Positions 16,582 to 33,462 of a DNA stretch of 50,625 nucleotides are shown piece after piece (the first letter of the stretch is position 1; each line of letters begins with the position of its first letter). The DNA lies in assembly GCA_013314815.1 (NCBI GenBank), contig JABUEY010000010.1:1-50625 (forward strand). The letters run 5' to 3'. Origin of the DNA: Syntrophobacteraceae bacterium. Lineage in GTDB: Bacteria; Desulfobacterota; Syntrophobacteria; Syntrophobacterales; Syntrophobacteraceae. Both the position numbers and the translations under genes were made by a program. The notes under the pieces are model-generated. The model saw only the letters and a list, made by a program, of their open reading frames with translations, made no database searches and was not told the DNA's origin.

Positions 16582-16758
16582 ATGGAAAAACTGATCAGGT
16601 TTCTGAAGGACGAAGAGGGCGTTACGGCGATCGAGTACGGCTTGATTGCTGCGCTGATTGCGGTGGTGATTATTGTTGCGGTCACGAATGTCGGGACAAG
16701 TTTGAGTGCTAAATTCCAGGAAATAGCTGATGCTGTGACAGGTGCAGGAGGAAGCTAA
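16582..16758 (+). CDS. flp: Flp-family type IVb pilin
   Basis: A 58-residue prepilin, the main structural subunit of the Tad pilus. The short charged leader ends in EEG, followed by VTAIEYGLIAALIAVVIIV. The Glu at +5 and the Tyr after it form the Flp motif, and cleavage between G13 and V14 is expected. After the hydrophobic helix only about 20 residues remain, as usual for Flp. AAGGAG lies six bases before the ATG at 16582, which fixes the start over a longer in-frame alternative. It stands alone ahead of the assembly genes, separated by about 270 bases with a stem-loop, which would allow higher expression of pilin than of the machinery. Confidence 0.95.
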   Translation: MEKLIRFLKDEEGVTAIEYGLIAALIAVVIIVAVTNVGTSLSAKFQEIADAVTGAGGS

Positions 16759-17025: not shown

Positions 17026-17574
17026 GTGTTGAACGTGGGTATTCTACAAAACCTGCCGGGAGATGTTGTCCCCATGGCGACATTGCTGTGCCTTGTGGTG
17101 GTTTCCGCCGTAGTCGATTTTCGTTCTCACAGGATCCCCAACATTTTGACTTTTCCCGCCATCCTGATCGGAATAGGATACTTTACTATCTCTGATGGGG
17201 TGGCGGGATTACTATTCAGTTTGAGCGGTATGACAGTTGGACTTGGGGTCTTGATCATTCCATATCTTTTCGGCATAATGGGTGCCGGGGATGTGAAGCT
17301 AATGGCTGCTGTGGGTGCTCTGCTGGGCAAGGACGGTGCATTCTCCGCTTTCGTCTGGACCTGTATTGCGGGAGGGGTTTTGGCGGGAGTGATGCTGGTC
17401 ATCCATCGTGGATATGCATTGGACCTTGCCAGATCATGTTGGGGGACCCTGAAAACATTTGCTTTGACCCGTCAACATATCTGGGTATATTCAAAGAAGA
17501 TGGTCGAGAAGCCAAAGTTGCCATACGGTGTGGCTATTTCTGCCGGTACTCTTTTATCATTATTCTTGCGTTAG
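17026..17574 (+). CDS. cpaA: Prepilin peptidase TadV/CpaA (A24 family)
   Basis: A 182-residue polytopic membrane aspartyl protease that removes the leader from Flp, TadE and related prepilins. The two catalytic aspartates are D31 in VVDFRSHRIPN and D89 in the GAGD motif (GIMGAGDVKLMAA). It lacks the N-methyltransferase domain of larger PilD enzymes, as usual for Tad systems. The likely start is GTG at 17026; an ATG at codon 17 is an alternative. It is the first gene of the assembly block. Confidence 0.92.
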   Translation: MLNVGILQNLPGDVVPMATLLCLVVVSAVVDFRSHRIPNILTFPAILIGIGYFTISDGVAGLLFSLSGMTVGLGVLIIPYLFGIMGAGDVKLMAAVGALLGKDGAFSAFVWTCIAGGVLAGVMLVIHRGYALDLARSCWGTLKTFALTRQHIWVYSKKMVEKPKLPYGVAISAGTLLSLFLR

Positions 17575-17757: not shown

Positions 17758-18636
17758 ATGGGAAAACTGAGAGCCATGCTGCCTCTCCTGCTGGCGGTCG
17801 TGATTGCCCTGGCCGCCTCGGTGGGTATTTATCGCTGGATGCAGCATACGAAGACCAGGACGCCCGGGGTTGTGGAGGCGCCCGTCGTGAAGGAAGGGGT
17901 CGAGATTGCCCTGGCGATGGGAGACCTCCCCTGGGGGACGAAGCTCACCAGGGACATGATCAAGTTCGTGACCATGTCGAAGGACAATCTCCCTCCGGGC
18001 ACCTTTCATACCATGGAATCCCTTGAAGGAAGAGTTCTCGTTCAGCCCGTCAAGAAAAACGAGATGATCATCGAATCGCGGCTGGCTCCCGAAAACGTGA
18101 CCACGGGGGGAGTCACCGCCGTTGTTTCTCCCGGCAAGCGGGCGGTGGCCGTGGCCGGGGACAAGGTCATCGGCCTTGCCGGCTTCATTCAGCCGGGGAA
18201 CTTCGTGGATGTTCTCGTCACGGTGCGGGTGAAGCAAGGGAAGGACAGCAGGGACGGCGAGGAATACTCCGTCACGAAGATGGTATTGTCGGATGTCAAG
18301 GTGCTGGCCACGGGAACGGTGATCGAGAAGAAGGCAGGCGGTACGGAACCCGCGCCGGTGGATGTGTTCACCCTCGAAGTGACGCCGGAGGAGGGGGAGC
18401 GGCTGGCGTTCGCGGCGGCCCAGGGCAGGGTCCAGTTTGCCTTGAGGAACGTTCTCGACAGGGACACGGTGTACACCATGGGTGTTACCGTGGCCGACGC
18501 ACTCGATGCCTACCGGCCGCGCCTCAAGCTGTTGTCCCGGGAACCGGAGACCTCGAAATCCGAAATGCCGAGGTCCCTGTTCAAAATGGAGATCATCAAG
18601 GGATCGAACGTGAACAGGGTGAGTTTTGACAGGTAG
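17758..18636 (+). CDS. cpaB: Flp pilus assembly protein CpaB/RcpC
   Basis: A 292-residue periplasmic protein with one N-terminal membrane anchor (about residues 7-25). The SAF domain at about 45-110 contains GDLPWGTKLTRDMIKF and GRVLVQPVKKNEMI. The RcpC/CpaB domain follows, with the signature GFIQPGNFVDVLVTV. It works with the secretin at the outer membrane during pilus secretion. CGAGG lies just before the ATG. The gene is followed after 50 bases by the secretin gene. Confidence 0.93.
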   Translation: MGKLRAMLPLLLAVVIALAASVGIYRWMQHTKTRTPGVVEAPVVKEGVEIALAMGDLPWGTKLTRDMIKFVTMSKDNLPPGTFHTMESLEGRVLVQPVKKNEMIIESRLAPENVTTGGVTAVVSPGKRAVAVAGDKVIGLAGFIQPGNFVDVLVTVRVKQGKDSRDGEEYSVTKMVLSDVKVLATGTVIEKKAGGTEPAPVDVFTLEVTPEEGERLAFAAAQGRVQFALRNVLDRDTVYTMGVTVADALDAYRPRLKLLSREPETSKSEMPRSLFKMEIIKGSNVNRVSFDR

Positions 18637-18686: not shown

Positions 18687-20153
18687 ATGCGAAGCTTTCC
18701 TGCCCGGGACGCCCTTGCACGAGGCAGAGCGAGAATCCTGTCTCTTATCCTGGCCGCTGTTTCAGTCGTCCTTTTCCCGATGCAAAGTCCGGCGGCGGGA
18801 CCGGCTCACGTGATCACCGGCCAGCAGCCGGCCGGGAAGATCCGGCTCCAGGTGGGCAAATCCATCATCATCAGGAGCGGCTCACCCGTGGTGAGAACGA
18901 CCCTGGGTACCACGGAAGTGGCCGACATCGTGGCGCTGTCTCCCACCCAGGTCTATGTCACCGGCAAGATGCCGGGGATTACCAACCTCATGCTGTGGCA
19001 GAGCGAGGACAAGATATCGGCCGTCTACGACCTCGAGGTGACTCCCGATACCTCGAGGCTCAAGGAGAGGATCCGCGAGATTCTCCCCCAGGAACAGGAT
19101 ATCCAGGTTGTGGCCTCCCATGATTCCCTGACGCTCTCGGGGACGGTATCGAGCACGTCGAACCTCTCGCGGGTTACGGCTCTTGCCGAGGCCTACGGGG
19201 GCGACAAGAAGGTTGTCAACCTCCTGCAGGTCTCGGGAGTACACCAGGTGATGCTCGAAGTCCGCGTGGCCGAGATGTCCCGGACTCTCACCAACAGGCT
19301 CTCCATCAATTCCATCGTTTCCCATGACGGCAGTGTGGGGGCGGTGTTTCCGGGCAACCTGATCACACTCGACAAGTTCGTGGGCAGCAATACCGGCGCC
19401 GGCTTGGAGTTCGAATTCGCCCCGACGATCAATTCTCTCTTTCACATTATCGGCGGTAATTTTACCTGGACGGCCTTTATCGATGCGTTGAAGCAGGACG
19501 GCCTGGTAAAGGTGCTGGCCGAACCGACCCTCATTGCCCAGAGCGGCCAGTCCGCGAGCTTCCTTGCCGGAGGCGAATTCCCCATTCCCGTTCCCCAGGG
19601 GCTGGGAACCGTGGCCATCGAGTACAAGAAATTCGGGGTGGGTCTTACGTTTACCCCGATCGTCCTCGGAGACGACCGCATCAATCTCAAGGTGGAACCG
19701 GAGGTGTCCGACCTCGACTTCTCCACGGCGGTAAATCTCAGCGGAGTCTCGGTCCCCGGCATCACCACTCGAAGAGTCTCGACGACAATAGAACTCGCCG
19801 ACGGGCAGAGCTTCGCCATTGCCGGGCTGCTGCGGGACAGTGTGCGGTCGAATGTGTCCAAGTTCCCGCTGCTCGGGGAAATTCCCATCCTTGGGGCGTT
19901 GTTCAGGAGCACGTCCTACCAGCGCAACGAGACGGAACTCATCGTGATTGTGACGCCTCACCTGGCGAAGCCCCTCGATATGGCAAGGCAGACGCTGCCC
20001 ACGGACAGCTACAGGGACCCCAGCGACGCGGAATTCTACCTGCTGGGGCTGCTGCAGGCGCGCGAGAAGAAGCAGGCTCCGCCCATGCCCGTATCGGCTC
20101 CTCCGGTCAGGCGAGGCGGATTCGATGGTGAATTCGGGCACAGTATTCCATGA
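18687..20153 (+). CDS. cpaC: Tad secretin CpaC/RcpA
   Basis: A 488-residue outer-membrane secretin forming the channel through which the pilus passes. A signal peptide spans about residues 1-36. An N-terminal domain (IRLQVGKSIII...) and a BON-like segment (VVASHDSLTLSGTVSS) follow. The secretin core has VKVLAEPTLIAQSGQSASFL and the C-terminal signature SKFPLLGEIPILGALFRS. A proline-rich tail of about 50 residues after the core is variable in the family. It lies between cpaB and the small secreted protein gene, all on the same strand. Confidence 0.94.
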   Translation: MRSFPARDALARGRARILSLILAAVSVVLFPMQSPAAGPAHVITGQQPAGKIRLQVGKSIIIRSGSPVVRTTLGTTEVADIVALSPTQVYVTGKMPGITNLMLWQSEDKISAVYDLEVTPDTSRLKERIREILPQEQDIQVVASHDSLTLSGTVSSTSNLSRVTALAEAYGGDKKVVNLLQVSGVHQVMLEVRVAEMSRTLTNRLSINSIVSHDGSVGAVFPGNLITLDKFVGSNTGAGLEFEFAPTINSLFHIIGGNFTWTAFIDALKQDGLVKVLAEPTLIAQSGQSASFLAGGEFPIPVPQGLGTVAIEYKKFGVGLTFTPIVLGDDRINLKVEPEVSDLDFSTAVNLSGVSVPGITTRRVSTTIELADGQSFAIAGLLRDSVRSNVSKFPLLGEIPILGALFRSTSYQRNETELIVIVTPHLAKPLDMARQTLPTDSYRDPSDAEFYLLGLLQAREKKQAPPMPVSAPPVRRGGFDGEFGHSIP

Positions 20154-21010: not shown

Positions 21011-21031
21011 AGCCCGGTGGAGGTTCCGGCG

Positions 21032-22111
21032 ATGGAACGGATTGAGGCGGGAATGCAGCGGCGGTCGGACAGTGCAGGGTCATCGGAAAAGGGTGCTGTC
21101 GCCGTCATGATTGCCTTCATGATCGTCACGGTACTCGGCTTTGCCGCACTGGCCGTGGATGTCGGGTACATGATGGTGGCCAGAAACGAGCTCCAGAACA
21201 TAGCCGACGCCTCGGCCCTTGCCGCCGCGAGGAAGCTCGGAGTCCTGTACGAAGGGATGACCCATACGGAGCAGAAATCCTACGTGTGCGATCCGGCGGT
21301 CCTTGCTGATATTGCGCAGGAGGTCGCCCTGAACAACCAGGCGGCCGGCATTGCCATCGACGTGGATTTTTCGGATATCCAGGTAGGAATCTGGAGGCCG
21401 GAATCGGGATTCAGCGCGACTCTCAACCAGCCCGACGCGGTGAGAGTCACCGCAAGGCGGCAGGCCGGGAGCAACGGTCCCGTGGGGACGTTTTTTGCGC
21501 AGATCCTCGGGATTGATACGGTGCCGGTGGCCGCATGCGCGACAGCCGCACTCACGGGTGCATCGACGGCGGACCCGGGCACCCTGGACATGCCGGTGGG
21601 CATCGCCATTCAGTGGTTTAACAAGGCGGAATTTTGCGATCAGCCCATCAAGTTCTATCCGACGGGCACCCTCGAAGGGTGCGCGGGGTGGAATACCTTC
21701 ATCGATTCACCGTCCAACGCCAGCAAGCTTCGAGACATTCTGAGGCAGCTGGCGCAGAACACCTATACGAGCCCCGAAGCGTTTGCCGGGCAGACCTTTT
21801 TTGTGTTTACCGGCGGGAACGTGGCATCGGCGTTCGATGAGATGAGGCAGCTTTACGAGGCGAAAAGAAACCCGGCCACCGGGGAATGGCGGGCTACCGT
21901 GGTGGTCTACGACATGCAGTGCGCCGACAATCCCACCGGATTTATCCGGATCGTCGGCTTCGCGACGGCCATAGTCACCGGCGTCAAAACATCCCCTTCC
22001 AACGAAATCACCGCAAAGGTGGTCTGCGACACGATCAATGAAGGCAGGGGAGGCGGAAATTACTACGGCACCAAGGGGAGCATCCCGGGACTGGTGGACA
22101 AGTGCCTGTAG
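21032..22111 (+). CDS. tadG: TadG-like protein with N-terminal Tad domain
   Basis: A 359-residue protein beginning with a putative Flp/Tad domain: EKGAVAVMIAFMIVTVLGFA, then ALAVDVGYMMVARNELQNIA. The single transmembrane helix anchors a large periplasmic region containing several cysteines. GGAGG lies eight bases before the ATG at 21032, which is preferred over the in-frame GTG at 21017. The von Willebrand domain of longer TadG proteins is not evident. It closes the first half of the tad locus; about 600 bases with a dispersed repeat follow before cpaE. Confidence 0.87.
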   Translation: MERIEAGMQRRSDSAGSSEKGAVAVMIAFMIVTVLGFAALAVDVGYMMVARNELQNIADASALAAARKLGVLYEGMTHTEQKSYVCDPAVLADIAQEVALNNQAAGIAIDVDFSDIQVGIWRPESGFSATLNQPDAVRVTARRQAGSNGPVGTFFAQILGIDTVPVAACATAALTGASTADPGTLDMPVGIAIQWFNKAEFCDQPIKFYPTGTLEGCAGWNTFIDSPSNASKLRDILRQLAQNTYTSPEAFAGQTFFVFTGGNVASAFDEMRQLYEAKRNPATGEWRATVVVYDMQCADNPTGFIRIVGFATAIVTGVKTSPSNEITAKVVCDTINEGRGGGNYYGTKGSIPGLVDKCL

Positions 22112-23964: not shown

Positions 23965-25371
23965 GTGTTGAATTTTCTGAATCGTATGAATCGGCAGGCG
24001 CAGCAGGGCCAGAACGGATCCGAAGAGGAGCCGTCGAAAAAGGCTGCTCTCGTGGCGCCCAAAAAACATGGGGAAAGAACGTACATTCCCAATGAATACT
24101 ATGAGTTGAAAACGAGGATCCACGACCGGCTCATCGATCTCATCGACCTGTCCCTCCTGGATACCGTGGACTCGAGCGTACTCAAACCCCAGATTCGCCG
24201 CCTGGTGGAAAAGATACTGCACGAAGACGAAAGGCGCATACCACTCAACATGACCGAGCGTGAGAGGCTGTTCCAGGAGATCCAGGACGAGGTTTTCGGC
24301 CTCGGCCCCCTCGAACCCTTTCTCCAGGACCCGACGGTTTCGGATATCCTCGTCAACGGATACCGGCAGATCTACGTCGAGCGCTACGGGAAGCTCGAAC
24401 TCACGGAAGCCCGTTTCAAGGACGACACTCACCTGAGAAAGATCATCGACCGCATCGTTTCCGCCGTGGGCCGCCGGGTGGACGAATCCTCCCCCATGGT
24501 GGACGCCCGGCTCCCGGACGGTTCGCGTGTGAACGCCATCATTCCTCCCCTGGCCCTGCATGGCTCGGCCATGTCCATACGGCGCTTTTCGAAAGACCCC
24601 CTCGAACTCGAGGACCTCATCGTCCTCAAGGCCCTGGTGCCAGAGATCGGCGAGGTGCTCAAGGCCGCCGTAAGAGCTCGACTCAACATTATCATCTCGG
24701 GAGGCACCGGGAGCGGCAAGACGACGCTTCTGAACGTGCTATCGCGGTTCATCCCCGAGGCGGAACGGATCATCACGATCGAAGACGCCGCGGAACTGCA
24801 GATCAAACAGATCCACCTGGTTTCCCTGGAAACGCGCCCTCCCAACCTCGAAGGCAAGGGAGAGGTGACTCAGCGCGAGCTGGTGAAGAACTGCCTGCGC
24901 ATGCGTCCCGACCGCATCATCCTGGGCGAGGTGCGCGGCCAGGAAGCCTTCGACATGCTCCAGGCCATGAACACCGGCCACGACGGGTCGCTCACCACCA
25001 TCCACGCCAATTCGCCCCGCGACGCCATCATGAGGCTCGAAACCATGGTGGCCATGGCCGGGTTCGATATCCCCGCGGAATTTTTGAGACGCTATATCGC
25101 GTCGGCACTCGACCTGATCATCCAGACGGCACGCCTGGCCGACGGCAGCCGCAAGGTGACCAGCATCCAGGAGATCACGGGCATGGAAGGCAACATGGTG
25201 ACGCTGCAGGAGATATTCCGCTTCGAACAGACGGGTGTAGGCAAGGACGGCAAGGTCCTGGGACGGTTCCGGCCGTGCGGAGTCCGGCCGAGTTTCAGCG
25301 ACAGGCTGACGGCCATGGGCATCTTTTTGCCCAAGAATCTGTTCGACCCCGGCCGATCCTTTGAAGTCTGA
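23965..25371 (+). CDS. tadA: Tad pilus assembly ATPase TadA/CpaF
   Basis: A 468-residue secretion ATPase of the VirB11/CpaF group that powers pilus assembly from the cytoplasmic face. Walker A is GGTGSGKT at 246-253. The Asp-box segment is [12 protein letters not shown], Walker B lies in [13 protein letters not shown], and the His box region is [13 protein letters not shown]. The N-terminal region ([20 protein letters not shown]) is the usual CpaF entry. The GTG start at 23965 follows GGAGTG ten bases upstream. The C-terminus past about residue 430 is short, as in other CpaF proteins. Confidence 0.95.
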
Positions 25372-25394: not shown

Positions 25395-26360
25395 ATGGAA
25401 ATCATGATCTCGGTGGCAACGTTCGTCGTCTGCCTGGTGCTGGTGGAAACGGTCTTCCTTTCCCTGCGCAGGCTCCGGAACCCCGGTGAGGCAAGGGTCC
25501 GCAAACGGCTGAAGGAATTCCACTCTGCTGACGAAGATGTTCAGCCGGCGGACATCGTGCGCAGGAAAGTGCTCAGCGACGTGCCCTGGCTGAACCGGCT
25601 GCTGGAGGGGGTCTCCCCCGTGAAAAGGCTCGATCGGCTTATCCGCCAGGCCGATGTGCAGCGGCCCGCCGGCTTCTTTATTCTCCTCTCCCTTGTCGTG
25701 GCGAGTGTGGGCTGGTTCGTCGGTACCACCTCGAGTGGAGGCAGGATCCTGCCGACGGCTTTCGCGGTTCTCTTCGGGTCGGTGCCTTTCCTGCTTCTCC
25801 ATTCGAAGAAGAAAAAGAGGATGCAGAAATTCCAGGAACAGCTGCCCGAGGCCCTGGAACTCGTGGCAAGGACACTCAAGGCAGGGCACGCCTTCTCGAG
25901 CGGTCTCAAGATGGTCTGTGACGAGATGAGCGACCCGATCGCCGTGGAATTCGACAGGACTCTCGACGAAATCAATTTCGGCGTCAGTGTGAGCGATGCG
26001 CTGAAAAACCTTGCAGCACGAGTGGACTGCCCGGACCTTGGCTACTTCGTGGTGGCCACCATCGTGCAAAGGGAGACGGGTGGAAACCTGGCCGAACTCA
26101 TCGAAGGGACCAGCGAGCTTATCCGCGAGAGGTTCAAGTTCTTCGGCAAGGTACGGGTTCTTTCGGCGGAAGCCAGGACCGGCGCGATCATCCTGATCGC
26201 GGTTCCTTTTGTTACGGCCGCGGCCCTTTTCATCTTGAACCGGGAGTACATCACCACACTCGTCAACGATCCCATCGGGCACATGCTCCTGGGCGGTGCA
26301 GCCGTGATGATCTGTCTCGGCATCCTGACCATCAGGAGCATGATCCGGATCGATGTCTAG
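25395..26360 (+). CDS. tadB: Tad inner-membrane platform protein TadB
   Basis: A 321-residue protein of the type II secretion F/TadB family. Hydrophobic segments lie at the N-terminus (about 3-20), around 90-140, and at the C-terminus (about 260-320). The central cytoplasmic region contains the family pattern EALELVARTLKAGHAFSSGL followed by DEINFGVSVSDALKNLA. Together with TadC it forms the membrane platform driven by TadA. It begins 23 bases after the tadA stop codon. Confidence 0.93.
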   Translation: MEIMISVATFVVCLVLVETVFLSLRRLRNPGEARVRKRLKEFHSADEDVQPADIVRRKVLSDVPWLNRLLEGVSPVKRLDRLIRQADVQRPAGFFILLSLVVASVGWFVGTTSSGGRILPTAFAVLFGSVPFLLLHSKKKKRMQKFQEQLPEALELVARTLKAGHAFSSGLKMVCDEMSDPIAVEFDRTLDEINFGVSVSDALKNLAARVDCPDLGYFVVATIVQRETGGNLAELIEGTSELIRERFKFFGKVRVLSAEARTGAIILIAVPFVTAAALFILNREYITTLVNDPIGHMLLGGAAVMICLGILTIRSMIRIDV

Positions 26361-26525: not shown

Positions 26526-27488
26526 ATGTTTCACGCCGACAACATACCCCTGCTGGTGTCCGGTGGTGTCTTTTTCTCCGTACTGCTCCTGTCCGTTGCG
26601 TTCATGCTGTATCGCAGGGAACAGGTCAGGCGAAGGAGAATCCACGAAAAGATCACGCGTGGGGAAAGGGAAGTTCCTTCCGGCAGTTCTCCCCGTGTCG
26701 ACGATGGCTCGGAGGGGCTTCGGGACCGGGTGATCAACTTCTGGGAGAGGGTGGGGGCGAAAGTCAAGCCCGAGAAGCCAGAGGAGATCCGGGAGTACCA
26801 GCTGCGTTTTCTGCGCGCCGGAATCCGCAGGCACAATGCCCTGGCCATCCTGATGGGTGCAAAATGCTTCCTGGCCCTGGTTTTTGCAGCTGCATTCCTG
26901 GCCGTCAAAGTTTGGTTCTTCCCTATACTGGGGAAGCTCGTGACCACCTTGTTCGCCCTGGTGAGCGCCCTGCTCGGGTTTTACCTCCCCAGCATATGGC
27001 TTCGCCTGAGGATATCTCGGCGGCAGGAGGCGGTGAGAAAGGGTCTAGCGGACGCCCTGGACCTCATGGTGGTGTGCGTCGAGGCGGGTATGGGCCTGGA
27101 TGCCGCCATCTTCCGGGTGGCCGAGGAATTCCGCCTGACCAACCCGGTGCTGAGCGAAGAACTCAAGCTCGTCAATCTCGAGATGCGCGCGGGCAAGTTG
27201 AGGCGCGACGCCTTGAAAAACCTGGCCCTGAGAACGGATCTCGAGGACGTAAGCACCCTCGTGGCCCTGCTCATCCAGACGGAGCGGTTCGGCACCAGCA
27301 TAGCCCAGGCTCTTCGAGTTCAATCCGACGCCTTCCGGACCAAGCGGTTTCAGAGGGCGGAGGAGAAGGCCGCCAAGCTGACGGTGAAGCTGGTGCTTCC
27401 CCTGATCCTGTTCATCTTCCCGGCTCTTTTTGTCGTCATCGTGGGACCGGCGCTCGTCAAGGTTCTGCGCATGTTCGTGCTGAAATAG
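26526..27488 (+). CDS. tadC: Tad inner-membrane platform protein TadC
   Basis: A 320-residue paralogue of TadB, also of the type II secretion F family. It has an N-terminal helix (LLVSGGVFFSVLLLSVAFML), a helix pair near residues 110-160, the cytoplasmic signature DALDLMVVCVEAGMGLDAAI, and C-terminal helices (LVLPLILFIFPALFVVIVGP). GAAGGA lies four bases before the ATG. About 165 bases separate it from tadB, more than elsewhere in this half of the locus; I see no gene in that gap. Confidence 0.93.
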   Translation: MFHADNIPLLVSGGVFFSVLLLSVAFMLYRREQVRRRRIHEKITRGEREVPSGSSPRVDDGSEGLRDRVINFWERVGAKVKPEKPEEIREYQLRFLRAGIRRHNALAILMGAKCFLALVFAAAFLAVKVWFFPILGKLVTTLFALVSALLGFYLPSIWLRLRISRRQEAVRKGLADALDLMVVCVEAGMGLDAAIFRVAEEFRLTNPVLSEELKLVNLEMRAGKLRRDALKNLALRTDLEDVSTLVALLIQTERFGTSIAQALRVQSDAFRTKRFQRAEEKAAKLTVKLVLPLILFIFPALFVVIVGPALVKVLRMFVLK

Positions 27489-27521
27489 CCGATAAGCCTG
27501 TTGATCGAGGAAAGTGCATTC

Positions 27522-28781
27522 ATGATCCCGGCAGTGAACCGTTCTTCCTGGAGGTGGCGTTTCGAAGCATCGGGTTCGGGCATTCGGAACAGCCTGTGGT
27601 GTATCGTCGTCCCGGTGGTACTGGTCCTTATCGTGCTCGGCCATGGATGCGCGTCCCGGGACGGCGGCATCAAATCGAAGGACTACGCCGCCCTGGCGGA
27701 GAAGCAGCGCGCCGCCGCGATTCCCGACGAAATCACCCGGGGAGGCAGGCTCCCGGACCTCACCGATGCCGATTATGAGAGGCTTGGAGACAATCTTCTG
27801 CTGAGCGGCGACCCGGTGAAGGCTTTCCTGCAGTACGACCGGGTGCTGCGCAGTCAACCGGCCAATGTGCAGGTGCGATGCAAACGGGGCAGGGTGTTCC
27901 TGGCCCGGGGCATGGTTGACGACGCCTTGAAAGATTTCGAGGAGGCGGCGAAAAAGGATCCGAAATATGCTCCGGCCTACGAGGGCATGGGGCAGGCCCT
28001 GTTCAAGAAAAAGCGGTACGACGAGGCGGAACGGGCCTTCCGGCAGGCGCTGCAGCTGAACGACAGGCTGTGGCTGGCCCGCAGCTACCTGGGCGTGGTC
28101 TACAACTACAGGGGAAAGCCGGAGCTCGCGGTGCCCGAGCACCAGGCCGCCATCATCATCCGGCCCGAAGACGGAACGCTTTACAACAACCTGGGGATTT
28201 CGTACTCCCTCATGGGTAACGACGAAGCCGCCGCTGCCGCCTTCCAGGACGCACTGGTAAGAAGCCCGTCGGACGAGCGGATCAGCAACAACCTGGGCCT
28301 GACTCTCTGCCGGCTGGGCAGATACGTGGAGGCCCTCGAGGCGTTCCGGAGGTCGGGCGACGAGGCCCGGGCCTACAACAACCTGGGTGCCGCCCTGATG
28401 CAGCTCGGGGAGTATGATCGGGCCGTAAGGGCCTTCGAGATCGCCGTCAGCCGCAGGTCGGGCTACTACGCCCAGGCGGCCGAGAATCTGAAGCAGGCCA
28501 GGGCGGCCGTCGAAGCCAAGGGAGGAACCGTTGCATCCCCGCCGTCCGGATCCGGTATTACTATAAGCCCCGTGATGGTCGAGAGCCCTGTGCTGTCTCC
28601 TCCTGAACCGGTTCTCACGGTCCCCCAGAAGCCGGCGGTCCGGCGCGCCCCGAAAGCTCAACGCCCCGCTTCCCTCAGCCCCCCTCCCGAGTTCAAGGGA
28701 CTCAGGCAGGAAAACGCGGATTTCATCGAAGAGAAAGTGATCCCTGTTGCTCCGGGTGATGGAGGCGGGAGGGCGGATTGA
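27522..28781 (+). CDS. tadD: TadD-like TPR lipoprotein
   Basis: A 419-residue tetratricopeptide-repeat protein with a lipoprotein signal: the hydrophobic segment VVPVVLVLIVLG leads to a lipobox HGC with Cys at residue 43. Five or more TPR units follow, for example RLGDNLLLSGDPVKAFLQYD, AYEGMGQALFKKKRYDEAE and YNNLGISYSLMGNDEAAAA. A proline-rich C-terminal tail of about 90 residues ends the protein. TadD family members assist secretin or pilus assembly at the outer membrane. The ATG at 27522, preceded by GAGGAAAG, is preferred over a TTG seven codons upstream. It is the last gene of the tad locus. Confidence 0.88.
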   Translation: MIPAVNRSSWRWRFEASGSGIRNSLWCIVVPVVLVLIVLGHGCASRDGGIKSKDYAALAEKQRAAAIPDEITRGGRLPDLTDADYERLGDNLLLSGDPVKAFLQYDRVLRSQPANVQVRCKRGRVFLARGMVDDALKDFEEAAKKDPKYAPAYEGMGQALFKKKRYDEAERAFRQALQLNDRLWLARSYLGVVYNYRGKPELAVPEHQAAIIIRPEDGTLYNNLGISYSLMGNDEAAAAAFQDALVRSPSDERISNNLGLTLCRLGRYVEALEAFRRSGDEARAYNNLGAALMQLGEYDRAVRAFEIAVSRRSGYYAQAAENLKQARAAVEAKGGTVASPPSGSGITISPVMVESPVLSPPEPVLTVPQKPAVRRAPKAQRPASLSPPPEFKGLRQENADFIEEKVIPVAPGDGGGRAD

Positions 28782-29046: not shown

Positions 29047-29823
29047 TCAGAAAACATGCAATGAACAGTTTCTTATAACTTTCCGTAGCCTTCTGGTGTG
29101 TAGTGCCAGATAGGATTGGCAAGTGCAACCATACCAAATTAGCCAGGCAATCATGAATCCAAGTAAGACATCAACGACATAGTGTTCACCTAGATATACA
29201 AGAGAAAATGACATTGATAAATTATATGATAATATCAATAAATAGCTGATAAATGTTCTCCTAAAAACTGCAAAACTAAAAATAGCAATTACAGATTGAT
29301 GTAATGATGGCATTGCTGCATGAAGGTTCTTATCTAGTTGTGTAATATATTCTCCTTTGTATCGAATTACTCCTGTAAGTGACATCCATGGTGGTGTTGT
29401 TGGGATAATGTAGTTAATTGCCAGTCCTATCATTATTGTTAATGATAATGCAACTAGATATTTCTTGTAATTAAGATTGAGAAAATATACTATTGTTAAT
29501 CCTAATAGTAATACAAATCCATATGAATAATATATAAATCTGCAGAGTACTGCTAATGTATCTGAGCGTATATTATTTTGCAGCCATTGTGAGGGTACTG
29601 AACCAAACAAAAGGCTGTCGAGATAGATGGGGTAGTCGATGTACAGACGGTCGGTGAAAAGAGGGATTTGAGCTCTAATATGCTGAAACACCGCAATAAA
29701 TACTAGAGAGAAGCCAATGAGAATCAAGATCTTCACGATCAATACAGAAATCTGGAGTGTGGCTTCCCTAAGGCCTTCGATGGAAACGGACTCGCGAATC
29801 ATGGTGTAAGGGCGAGGTCTCAT
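29047..29823 (-). CDS. PAP2_3-like membrane protein (phosphatase / phosphotransferase family)
   Basis: A 258-residue membrane protein with about six helices. Two PAP2 motifs are present: PSLHQS at 172-177 (motif 2) and S207-LVYLGEH-YVVD (motif 3), giving the catalytic His/Asp pair. The classical motif 1 is replaced by NYIIPTTPPW at 137-146, as in the PAP2_3 / inositolphosphotransferase-like subgroup. Members act on lipid-linked phosphates at the membrane; the substrate here is unknown. GGAG lies five bases before the ATG. The gene beyond its first 200 bases is strikingly AT-rich compared with every neighbour, with many AT-ending codons, suggesting recent acquisition. It follows the DUF362 gene on the same strand after 70 bases. 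Confidence 0.85.
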   Translation of the reverse strand: MRPRPYTMIRESVSIEGLREATLQISVLIVKILILIGFSLVFIAVFQHIRAQIPLFTDRLYIDYPIYLDSLLFGSVPSQWLQNNIRSDTLAVLCRFIYYSYGFVLLLGLTIVYFLNLNYKKYLVALSLTIMIGLAINYIIPTTPPWMSLTGVIRYKGEYITQLDKNLHAAMPSLHQSVIAIFSFAVFRRTFISYLLILSYNLSMSFSLVYLGEHYVVDVLLGFMIAWLIWYGCTCQSYLALHTRRLRKVIRNCSLHVF

Positions 29824-29893
29824 TTGTACTCCATGGTTTCTGAAAAATACCAGGCCGAATCGAAAGAAATGACCATCGATCGGCAGTCCCACC

Positions 29894-30901
29894 TCATCCC
29901 TCCCCAATCCCCCGCTGCGCCGGGACAAAGTCCAGCAGGGCATAATTTGTGCGCAATGTGTCGATGTTTTCTCCGCGCTGGTGGATTCGGTTCCTGTCGA
30001 TGGGGCCGAGCCAGTCGGCGGCGGTGTGCAGATACTTGATCCGGTGCGGATTGACGCCCATGAGCCGGGCGCTGGTGGCGTCGACAGCCGGGAGGTTGCG
30101 CCCCATGACGAGGACTCCCGACGGAACGGGGTCCCCCATGATGGGACCGTCGCCTTCCATCCCCACGATCCCGTCCACGATGGCAAAATGAGGTCGAAGC
30201 GTGGCGTTGATATCGAGGATGCTCTTCTCGATTCCCGCGTGGTGCAGCACGTTCTTCGGCCACCCGTAGTAGATGCCGGGCATGACTCCGAAAAGGTTTT
30301 TCATGGAGAGGGTCACTCCCGCCCAGTGGTGGGTTTTCATCTTCGCCAGGGACACGATCCAGTCCACCTGGCGCAGGCATACGGGGAAGGTGAGTGTCCC
30401 GAGGCGGCTGTAGCGGCCGGCGTTGACCACCGAATAACCCTGCTGCTGGTTGAGGTCGACGAAGGGGATGCGGTCTTCGAGGAGCACATCTCTCAGGCCG
30501 GACTGTTCGAGCACGAGCAGGGTGTCGGTGTAGTGGCCCGCGCCTTCGGCTGCGATGACGCTGGAAGCTCCCATGTGAAGGAAAGCCTCCACCGCGCCCC
30601 GGACGACCAGCGGGTGGGTGTTGATGTGTCCCCTGCCGGCGTGGGGTTCCACCAGGTTGGGTTTGAGCAGGATGCGTTTGCCGGCGATTTCCTCGCGGGA
30701 AACGCCCAGTTCACGCAGGCCGGAAAGCATGACGGATGCCAGGTCGGCGTCGTAGTTCGAAACGGCGGCGACGAATGTGTCCGCCTCGAGCTGGGGTCTC
30801 CGCCACCGGTTCCATGTCAGGATTCCAGCGCCCAGGGCCGTACCAGCCGTCGCCGTGGCAAGGAGGAATTCTCTTCGGGTCAGCCGTCTTTTCATGGACA
30901 T
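29894..30901 (-). CDS. Tat-exported DUF362 protein
   Basis: A 335-residue protein with a twin-arginine signal (LTRREFLLATATAGTALGAG). It is followed by a DUF362 domain with RILLKPNLVEPHAGRGHINT, SLAKMKTHHWAGVTLSMKNL and GIVGMEGDGPIMGD. The family has no firmly established function, although some members carry iron-sulfur domains; no Cys cluster is seen here. The Tat signal implies folding before export, perhaps with a cofactor. Two ATGs (30901 and 30895) are possible starts; a longer frame would overlap the upstream gene. It lies 28 bases after the cyclase-like gene, and the three genes 29047-31814 look like one transcription unit. Confidence 0.85.
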   Translation of the reverse strand: MSMKRRLTRREFLLATATAGTALGAGILTWNRWRRPQLEADTFVAAVSNYDADLASVMLSGLRELGVSREEIAGKRILLKPNLVEPHAGRGHINTHPLVVRGAVEAFLHMGASSVIAAEGAGHYTDTLLVLEQSGLRDVLLEDRIPFVDLNQQQGYSVVNAGRYSRLGTLTFPVCLRQVDWIVSLAKMKTHHWAGVTLSMKNLFGVMPGIYYGWPKNVLHHAGIEKSILDINATLRPHFAIVDGIVGMEGDGPIMGDPVPSGVLVMGRNLPAVDATSARLMGVNPHRIKYLHTAADWLGPIDRNRIHQRGENIDTLRTNYALLDFVPAQRGIGEG

Positions 30902-30929
30902 CTTCACATCGCGGATTATCGGGCGGTTT

Positions 30930-31814
30930 TCAGCCGGCGGCCCTTCCGGACAGTATGCCGTCCATCCCGCCATCGGCAAACCATGCGGCGGTCATCAGGC
31001 CGACCGTTGCCGTATCGTATTCACCGAAAAAGCGCCTTTGTTCCCAGCTTTCACTCAGCATGGCGCGGGCGTCGGCCGGCCGCTCGCCCCAGGCTCCAAG
31101 CCCGAGCAGTCCCCAGGACAGGGAGAGAGGCGTGCGCACATCCCGCACCCGGGATTTCATGCAGGCGAGGCCAGACTCCACGTCTTCTCTCGATACCAGG
31201 CCGGAGAGCGCATCGAGGGCCATTCCGGTGGTGTCCGGCATGGCGTACAGGTCCCGGCCGAAAATCTTCGTGTTGCCGTAATTCCAGCCTCCTGAAGGAA
31301 GCCGGCGGTCGAGCAGCATGGCTACGGCTTGGACGGCCCGTTCGTGACCGCCCAGCCCCGATGCCTTGAGGGCAAGCAGGGTGAGAGACGTGGGCACGAC
31401 CCACGAATGGGTTCCTTCGATGTACGACCAGCCCTTGAGTGATGGATCGTGGCCCACGACGTTGTCCCGCCCTCGTGCCCAGTGCCGCCCGCTTGAATTC
31501 AGAAGAAAATCCAGCGCCCGTGACCGGGAATCGTCGAATCGGGGAATTCCCTGCCATGCCATGACGGCAAGAGGCGTGGGCCACCAGGCTTCGGGATTCT
31601 GCGGAGAAACGCAGACACGTCCATCGGGCTGCTGGTTCCCGGCAAGGCGCGTGCACGCAGGACCGACAAGGACCGGGTTCGACCCCGATGCACGCAGGGC
31701 GGCCACGGCCCAAGCCGTTGCGTCGGGGCGATCGTCCTCCCCCGGGCGGTTTGCAAAGCCACCGGAGTCGAGGACTCTCGACATCAATACGCTTAGGAAA
31801 GGGCACGAAGACAT
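30930..31814 (-). CDS. Squalene-cyclase/prenyltransferase-like alpha-toroid repeat protein
   Basis: A 294-residue protein built of repeats like those of prenyltransferases and terpene cyclases: ATAWAVAALRASG, WPTPLAVMAWQGI, WVVPTSLTLLALKASG, GMALDALSGL and LSWGLLGLGAWGE. QW-like elements such as LPSGGWNYG are visible. The aspartate-rich DxDD motif of true squalene-hopene cyclases is not evident, and the protein is less than half their length, so enzyme activity is doubtful. A related prenyltransferase-like binding or scaffold role is possible. No signal peptide is clear. The start is uncertain because no ribosome binding site is evident. It is the first gene of the trio with DUF362 and PAP2_3. 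Confidence 0.75.
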   Translation of the reverse strand: MSSCPFLSVLMSRVLDSGGFANRPGEDDRPDATAWAVAALRASGSNPVLVGPACTRLAGNQQPDGRVCVSPQNPEAWWPTPLAVMAWQGIPRFDDSRSRALDFLLNSSGRHWARGRDNVVGHDPSLKGWSYIEGTHSWVVPTSLTLLALKASGLGGHERAVQAVAMLLDRRLPSGGWNYGNTKIFGRDLYAMPDTTGMALDALSGLVSREDVESGLACMKSRVRDVRTPLSLSWGLLGLGAWGERPADARAMLSESWEQRRFFGEYDTATVGLMTAAWFADGGMDGILSGRAAG

Positions 31815-32436
31815 ACGTATTGCCGGATCGTCAAAGGCCGGAGAAGGCTCCAGTTGACAGGAAAGCCCGGGCGCCGGGAATAGCCTGGATACAGGCGCAA
31901 ATGCAAGTTCGCACTCGACCAGGCAAAGGTTCCTTCACGCCAGGCCGGAAATCCCGAGAAAAGGTGATGAAGTCGTTACAGCCTTGTCACCAAAATACTC
32001 AATATCTACCAGAACATGCATCTTTTACGCAACGAAATTTCAATGCCGGGTGTCGAACTGGTTGTCAATTGTGTGGAGACGACCGCCGTACCGCGGTCCT
32101 GAAGATGGAGGTTCTTCCGTAAAACGCGTACCCGCACAGTTGTCGCACAAAGGTGGAATGCGCCCGCAACAATGTCCCTCCCGCGACAATGTCCCTCCTG
32201 CAACGACGTCCTTCCTACAACAATTGCGTGAAAGGCACCGGATGTACTCATTTGCCGGACGAAGCAAAATGCAAGAATAGGCCGAATAACTCCGATACAA
32301 ATCATGATTATGGTCGATGAAATCCCTTGATACGGAATGTGGATCCATTGTATGTATACTCTGCGGGATAAGGCCTTCCTTCTATAAGCATCGTTTTTAT
32401 ACGACAAAATGGGATTCCAATCAGGGAGCCATACAT
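31815..32436. other. Intergenic region between the cyclase-like gene and the second tadG-like gene
   Basis: About 620 bases separate divergent genes. A partial copy of the dispersed repeat occupies 32108-32228. The last 150 bases before the tadG-like gene are AT-rich and contain TTGATA and TATACT elements, but their spacing (22 bases) is too long for a standard promoter. No gene is seen. Confidence 0.5.
32108..32228 (+). repeat. Dispersed intergenic repeat, copy E (head and middle only)
   Basis: The head reads GGTTCTTCCGTAAAACGCGT, then ACCCGCACAGTTGTCGCACA and AAGGTGGAATG. It is followed by three degenerate CAACAATGTCCCTCC-type units. The palindromic tail and distal arm of the full copies are missing, so this copy is truncated. 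Confidence 0.7.
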
Positions 32437-33462
32437 ATGGCGCACGGACCAATGGGCTTGAAGAGGCTTATATCTCCCGGAAGTAACGAATCCGGTGCGG
32501 TAGTTATCGTCCTGGCGCTTATGCTTACCATGATGCTGGGTTTTGCCGGGCTTGCCATAGATACGGGCAATCTCATGCTTGTGAGAAACGAGCTGCAGAA
32601 CGCAGCAGATGCGGCGGCGCTGGCTGGAACGGCAGGTTTTTTCCCCGAAGGTCATACGTCGAAAATTCCCGACTGGTCGTCGGCTGAAGCTGCTGCCCTG
32701 GCGGGAGTACAACTCAACAAGGCCGGCGGTGTGACTCTGTCCGATGCGGATATCGAGACAGGGTACTGGAATCTTTCTCAGAGTGAGGCGGGTCTGCAGG
32801 GTCAGGGCATCACACCCGGAAGCGAGGATGTGCCGGCGCTGAAGGTGAGGATCAGCCGATCCGCAGGCAGTAACGGAGGCCCCGTATCCACCTTTTTCGG
32901 TGCTTTCCTGGGGAAAGGTTCGTTGGATGTGAGTGCCGAGGCGACGGCGGTGCTTGTTTCTCCAGGTTCCGTGGAAGCGGGGATGCTTTTCCCGGTGGCC
33001 GTCAGCAAGGCCCAGGCGGACCAGTACTGGGGAATCCCCGGGGTTTCTTTCAGGATTTGTTCCGTATACGATCCGAAACACTGTGAGGAAGAGGCGGCTG
33101 GCCAGTGGACGTCGTTCCAGGTCGACGCGAACAATGTCCCCACCATCAGGGATCTCATCGCCAACGGCAACCCGACGCCTGTGGCGGTCGGCGACCAGAT
33201 CTGGATCCAGCCGGGAACGGAAGCGTCACTTTATGACCATGTCACTCCAGGCCGGGACGTCCTGATGGCGGTGGTCGAGTATATCGACACCCACGCTTAT
33301 GTGCCCGTGGTGGGATTCGTTCCGCTCCGTATCGAATCGGTCAACAAGACCGGGAAATGCAAGTACATCCAGGCACATTTCATCAATGACTTCCCCCTGG
33401 TCGACGGCAACCCCGCCGGCCCGAAGTACGGGGCCTGGATTCCTCCCAGGCTGGTCAGGTAG
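32437..33462 (+). CDS. Second TadG-like protein with N-terminal Tad domain
   Basis: A 341-residue protein with a short cytoplasmic N-terminus and the Tad-domain signature ESGAVVIVLALMLTMMLGFA, then GLAIDTGNLMLVRNELQNAA. The long periplasmic region is unlike the TadG at 21-22 kb beyond the first 140 residues. It contains three cysteines (two in the segment RICSVYDPKHCEE). AGGGAG lies eight bases before the ATG, which excludes a longer in-frame start. It stands alone, 3.6 kb past the tad locus and separated from it by the minus-strand trio. It could be a variable surface or tip component processed through the same machinery; this is inference. Confidence 0.85.
   Translation: MAHGPMGLKRLISPGSNESGAVVIVLALMLTMMLGFAGLAIDTGNLMLVRNELQNAADAAALAGTAGFFPEGHTSKIPDWSSAEAAALAGVQLNKAGGVTLSDADIETGYWNLSQSEAGLQGQGITPGSEDVPALKVRISRSAGSNGGPVSTFFGAFLGKGSLDVSAEATAVLVSPGSVEAGMLFPVAVSKAQADQYWGIPGVSFRICSVYDPKHCEEEAAGQWTSFQVDANNVPTIRDLIANGNPTPVAVGDQIWIQPGTEASLYDHVTPGRDVLMAVVEYIDTHAYVPVVGFVPLRIESVNKTGKCKYIQAHFINDFPLVDGNPAGPKYGAWIPPRLVR

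Follow-up and report, generated by a model that had tools for sequence, protein, structure and literature searches.

A conserved toroid-DUF362 gene pair, apparently an undescribed pilus-accessory module, in the Tad locus of a Syntrophobacteraceae bacterium

A gene for a squalene-cyclase-like (toroid) protein and an adjoining gene for a DUF362 protein form a conserved pair within a complete Tad (type IVc) pilus locus of the window (the whole stretch of 50,625 nucleotides that was analysed), and are apparently a pilus-accessory module not yet described. The pairing itself is near certain, the link of the pair to pili is likely, and use of the nickel-pincer nucleotide (NPN) by the DUF362 protein is plausible; the mechanism beyond these points is what we infer. 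The literature searched yielded no earlier report of the toroid-DUF362 pair, and no paper joining DUF362 with a Tat signal, a squalene cyclase with the Flp pilus, or the Tad pilus and Flp pilin with a glycosyltransferase.

Positions 29047 to 31814 of the window hold three intact minus-strand ORFs, as determined by ORF reading and family scans:

30930..31814, minus strand, toroid gene; 294 aa, single-domain squalene-cyclase-like alpha/alpha barrel, no DxDD motif, no signal peptide seen
29894..30901, minus strand, DUF362 gene (PF04015, E=2e-44); predicted Tat-exported protein of the LarA fold
29047..29823, minus strand, PAP2_3 gene (PF14378, E=3e-20); membrane phosphatase/phosphotransferase-like, 258 aa

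The gaps are 28 bases between toroid and DUF362 and 70 bases between DUF362 and PAP2 if the DUF362 gene starts at 30901; the residue numbers of DUF362 given below are counted from the ATG at 30895. The ORFs are real, as homologues arranged in the same order and direction are present in other genomes. This agrees with the sequence-only reading, which had placed three minus-strand genes with small gaps here and had called a PAP2_3 protein, a Tat-exported DUF362 protein and a squalene-cyclase-like toroid without DxDD; these family calls and the predicted export were borne out by the searches and models described here. It had also stated that none of the three has an assigned function, and none was found.

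Homologues were taken from genome contigs and from two sets of 297 genomes each, one from the phylum of the window and one from the phylum of locus L006 (Acidobacteria), which yielded 24 intact pairs besides that of the window. (In L006 the contig end falls inside the DUF362 gene; genome G149, with a hit of 43.6 bits and an internal stop, was left out of the toroid genomes.) In every one of the 25 intact loci, which represent at least two phyla, the toroid gene lies upstream of the adjoining DUF362 gene on the same strand, and an exact overlap of 4 bases between the two was found in ten. Toroid and DUF362 diverge in step, with a Mantel r of 0.87 for the correlation of distances and none of 2000 permutations as high. 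In the Tad locus of G132 only a toroid remnant is left (L037, 9648-9959) and DUF362 is gone, whereas the congeneric genome G261 (L032) has kept both genes, beside TadG-like genes; the two genes thus decay together. That toroid and DUF362 constitute one unit is hardly in doubt.

Regarding the third gene, the PAP2_3 match (73.1 bits vs. a gathering cut-off of 27, residues 92-245) assigns it to a family of Aur1-like lipid phosphate enzymes, but as a neighbour of the pair it occurs in the genome of the window only and lies outside the conserved unit. No PAP2 homologue was found beside the pair at any of the 24 further loci, and the composition of the gene is foreign (GC 0.364 vs. about 0.6 (0.63) around it, GC3 0.332 vs. 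0.71-0.80 in neighbouring genes). It is best read as an unrelated neighbour that arrived later and looks like a recent acquisition; a viral relative was looked for and none was found. The sequence-only reading had joined all three genes in an envelope-lipid unit. Consistent with that are the common strand and the 70-base gap, and the search for separate promoters, which gave nothing convincing (the scan for promoters and terminators did no better than on shuffled sequences). Given that PAP2 is missing from all other pair loci and that its GC3 is so far from that of its neighbours, it was rejected as a member, and a three-gene unit is largely refuted and very improbable. What stands of that proposal is the unit of toroid and DUF362 and its conserved neighbourhood across genomes; the trio has no such neighbourhood.

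The pair is surrounded by genes that the sequence-only reading had not used. As in a Tad/Flp pilus biogenesis locus, the window holds flp, prepilin peptidase, CpaB, secretin, TadE, TadG, CpaE, TadA, TadB, TadC and TadD, with a further TadG-like gene on the far side of the pair:

16582..16758, plus strand, Flp-type major pilin (KDEEGVTAIEYGLIAALIAVV); ORF and motif read from the sequence, without a family-model scan
17026..17574, plus strand, prepilin peptidase (CpaA/TadV); PF01478, E=5e-17
17758..18636, plus strand, CpaB/RcpC; PF16976, E=1e-28
18687..20153, plus strand, secretin CpaC/RcpA; PF00263, E=8e-48, and PF13629
20522..21010, plus strand, TadE; PF07811, E=2e-18
21017..22111, plus strand, TadG-like protein (Tad and Tad_C); PF13400 and PF09977
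22728..23900, plus strand, CpaE/TadZ-like ATPase; PF13614, E=6e-8; 49% identical to its G006 counterpart
23965..25371, plus strand, TadA/CpaF ATPase; PF00437, E=9e-69
25395..26360, plus strand, TadB; PF00482, E=2e-16
26526..27488, plus strand, TadC; PF00482, E=2e-20
27501..28781, plus strand, TadD-like TPR protein; TPR repeats, homologue in the Tad locus of G006
32317..33462, plus strand, second TadG-like gene, on the far side of the pair; PF09977, E=4e-13, and PF13400

The Tad locus, like the PAP2 gene, is an ordinary part. To our knowledge, toroid and DUF362 are not among the genes of a standard Tad locus, and the toroid is missing from most genomes of the window's phylum that are Tad-positive.

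The neighbourhood of pilus genes recurs across genomes. Twelve of the 25 intact loci, spread over at least two phyla, have Tad genes within 10 kb of the pair, and one more has them at about 17 kb. In three acidobacterial loci (L053, L054 and L057) a type IVa-like prepilin gene is found directly upstream of the pair, and L054 also carries PilB, PilT and PilC. In the remaining nine intact loci pilus genes are absent from the stretch read, three of these stretches being short (3.8 to 13.5 kb). In the window's phylum, Tad genes are present in each of the 12 real toroid genomes; under a strict TadA count the frequency is 9/12 vs. 53/285 in the other genomes (Fisher p=6e-5, a value which overstates independence, as the genomes are related). 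Nevertheless, the Tad label turns up repeatedly across the toroid tree, with seven changes, at least four of them forced by supported branches. The seven changes, together with the roughly one third of loci that have no pilus genes nearby, would also be expected of a gene pair that drifts and comes to rest beside pilus loci without contributing to pili. This explanation is improbable, since the linkage recurs in most clades, with two kinds of pili and in varied orientations, and since Tad genes are missing from none of the real toroid genomes in the window's phylum. That the pair serves pili is accordingly rated as highly probable.

On its own the toroid yields a marginal Pfam match (SQHop_cyclase_C, E=0.08), whereas a profile of 25 toroid homologues matches squalene-hopene cyclase in the PDB with E=2e-24. 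The AF2 model (pLDDT 94.3) is a single alpha/alpha barrel over 294 aa and matches squalene-hopene cyclase (2sqc) with a VIA Z of 26.1 and an rmsd of 2.8 over 259. The sugar-acting barrels of cellobiose 2-epimerase and AprG also score Z 20-21, and the substrate can therefore not be read from the fold. The barrel is thus shared with squalene-hopene cyclase and type II terpene cyclases (drimenyl diphosphate synthase, MstE) at Z 20-26 and approximately 15-20% identity, but compared with squalene-hopene cyclase the toroid consists of one barrel instead of two, lacks DxDD and has no isoprenoid context shown. The DxDD motif is absent from 25 of 25 family members, and a role as terpene cyclase was rejected for its absence. 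Invariant among the 25 members are GGWN, W129 and R159, with D169-R170 nearly so.

The DUF362 protein scores 152.7 bits against PF04015 (gathering cut-off 24) and 17.8 bits against the Tat signal model TIGR01409 (TAT_signal_seq; cut-off 16.7), and the twin arginine is found in 24 of 24 paired DUF362 proteins. Its AF2 model (pLDDT 90.1) is closest to malate racemase (VIA Z 17.4); twelve PDB entries of the LarA family (lactate and malate racemases) score Z 15.0-17.4 and the next structure 6.2. A sequence search of the PDB with DUF362 returned nothing useful. Alignment of a profile of 24 DUF362 sequences with one of 11 LarA sequences reached E=5.5e-5 (232 columns; hhalign probability 66%). In this profile alignment H121, H189, K199 and H218 of DUF362 correspond to H108, H174, K184 and H200 of LarA; among the 24 paired proteins H121 is conserved in 22 and each of the other three in all 24. 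In LarA, K184 tethers the cofactor, H200 is a nickel ligand, and H108 and H174 are catalytic (PMC7583248).

In comparison with the nickel-pincer nucleotide racemases and epimerases of the LarA superfamily, DUF362 shares the fold of the first approximately 300 residues, the tether lysine, and the nickel-ligand and catalytic histidines. It differs in lacking the C-terminal domain (the protein, 333 aa long, is matched to about residues 33-302 of the approximately 425 of LarA), in having no clear counterparts of D72 and R75, where the alignment is gapped, or of K298, which lies outside the reliable overlap, in its predicted export through Tat, and in being encoded with the toroid in pilus loci. 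DUF362 and the LarA superfamily (DUF2088) belong to the same Pfam clan, CL0471 (PMC11770544).

The genome of the window, G000, encodes three further DUF362 proteins (L001, L002 and L004), which keep the H-10-K spacing and the later histidine; by eye no histidine is apparent in them at the position of H121. The H-K-H motif is therefore not special to the pair, and a LarA-type site may have been retained throughout the DUF362 family; judged from the sequences, such a site looks like a family property that is more complete in the paired branch. Cysteine motifs of the 4Fe-4S-like type occur in the unpaired L001 and L002, and the N-terminus of L004 is Tat-like.

Regarding supply of the cofactor, LarC was found in 21 of 23 pair genomes, a count made within pair genomes, and canonical LarA is absent from ten of these LarC-bearing genomes, including that of the window. 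In G000, LarC is encoded on C219 (L079) beside CinA and ThpR genes; neither LarB nor LarE was found among the ten neighbouring ORFs scanned. The two pair genomes without a LarC match (G224 and G145; L035 and L036) are those with phenylalanine at H121 of DUF362. Both belong to one family, are fragmented and contain several LarA genes each; the match between the two features may be a coincidence and is given little weight. Among 14 control genomes DUF362 and LarC coincide in four (p=0.09, not significant). One control, Haloferax volcanii, has DUF362 and LarC matches and no LarA match, and may have an enzyme with the nickel-pincer cofactor (PMC8305020).

Approximately 15% of surveyed genomes have larB, larC and larE without larA, from which NPN-binding proteins not yet known were inferred (PMC11796402). 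No demonstration of NPN binding by a DUF362 protein was found in the literature searched. With the LarA residues kept by DUF362 and its occurrence alongside LarC in genomes without canonical LarA, the question of larB, larC and larE without larA becomes directly testable. On the evidence of fold and residues, the paired DUF362 protein may be an NPN-dependent nickel enzyme, a reading which is put forward tentatively. The wider idea that DUF362 proteins are among the non-LarA users of NPN, with the pilus-linked branch loaded in the cytoplasm, exported folded through Tat and modifying pili or their cargo with the toroid as partner, is more speculative and rather doubtful. Apart from the cofactor question, the pair would extend Tad loci, and some loci of type IVa pili, by an accessory module.

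As a tentative explanation of the whole, which is a serious possibility, the pair would be a pilus-accessory module in which a toroid of the cytosol is combined with a LarA-like metalloenzyme exported through Tat. Toroid and DUF362, in this order, would be cotranscribed as a two-gene operon accessory to loci of type IV-family pili, mostly Tad/Flp. The toroid, a single domain of the squalene-cyclase/prenyltransferase fold, would stay in the cytoplasm. DUF362 would fold there and probably load its metal cofactor, for which the nickel-pincer nucleotide is the best candidate, before passing through Tat, probably still anchored by its N-terminal helix. Its site of action would be the outer face of the membrane, where it would work as a racemase- or epimerase-type enzyme. 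The group acted on would be a hydroxy acid or sugar acid, belonging either to the pilus or to a pilus-associated glycan or lipid; this particular choice of substrate is a guess and unlikely to be right in detail. The toroid, finally, would prepare either the substrate of DUF362 or its cofactor-loaded form.

A different division of labour would make the toroid a dedicated maturation or proofreading partner of the DUF362 precursor, comparable to the Tat chaperones of redox enzymes and without small-molecule chemistry of its own; its cytoplasmic target would be the twin-arginine signal of DUF362 or else the protein itself, once folded or loaded with cofactor. The strict one-to-one pairing and correlated divergence, the lack of DxDD throughout the toroid family, the invariant twin arginine of the partner, and the predicted locations of the two proteins, one cytosolic and the other exported, are all compatible with such a role. 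It is nevertheless considered unlikely, both as to the role and as to the binding of the precursor, as the invariant toroid residues (GGWN, W129 and R159, nearly also D169-R170) may mean a ligand site and known Tat chaperones have folds other than that of the toroid.

Lipid-linked or isoprenoid handling at the envelope, which the sequence-only reading had suggested, was not borne out: the neighbourhood points to pili, and the fold of DUF362 is that of lactate and malate racemases, not of a lipid enzyme. What survives is an indirect tie to polyprenyl-phosphate sugars, because GT87 glycosyltransferases lie near Tad loci, though with weak specificity for pair loci. In its stronger form, i.e., that the pair belongs to a pilin or pilus glycosylation pathway using polyprenyl-phosphate sugars, this is improbable. 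In seven of 23 pair genomes, GT87 genes do occur at most 15 kb from the pair or from a Tad locus, and the stretch between pair and Tad genes in G326 contains genes for UbiA-HAD and FAD oxidoreductase, as known from the synthesis of polyprenyl-phosphate-pentose. However, GT87 is also near TadA in five of 53 Tad-positive genomes without the pair; the difference is weak (p=0.04), and within the window's phylum the excess vanishes (2/12 vs. 5/53, p=0.6), and the window has no GT87 gene. As a specific partner of the pair GT87 was thus rejected, being near Tad generally and not clearly pair-specific.

Four membrane proteins near the pair that look like GT-C glycosyltransferases had no Pfam match. 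With or without the pair, GT87 genes recur within approximately 15 kb of Tad loci. Locus L034 (G326:C1, approximately 810-839 kb) has UbiA-HAD, FAD-oxidoreductase, SDR and GT87 genes between the pair and the Tad genes, an arrangement that resembles a polyprenyl-phosphate-pentose cassette.
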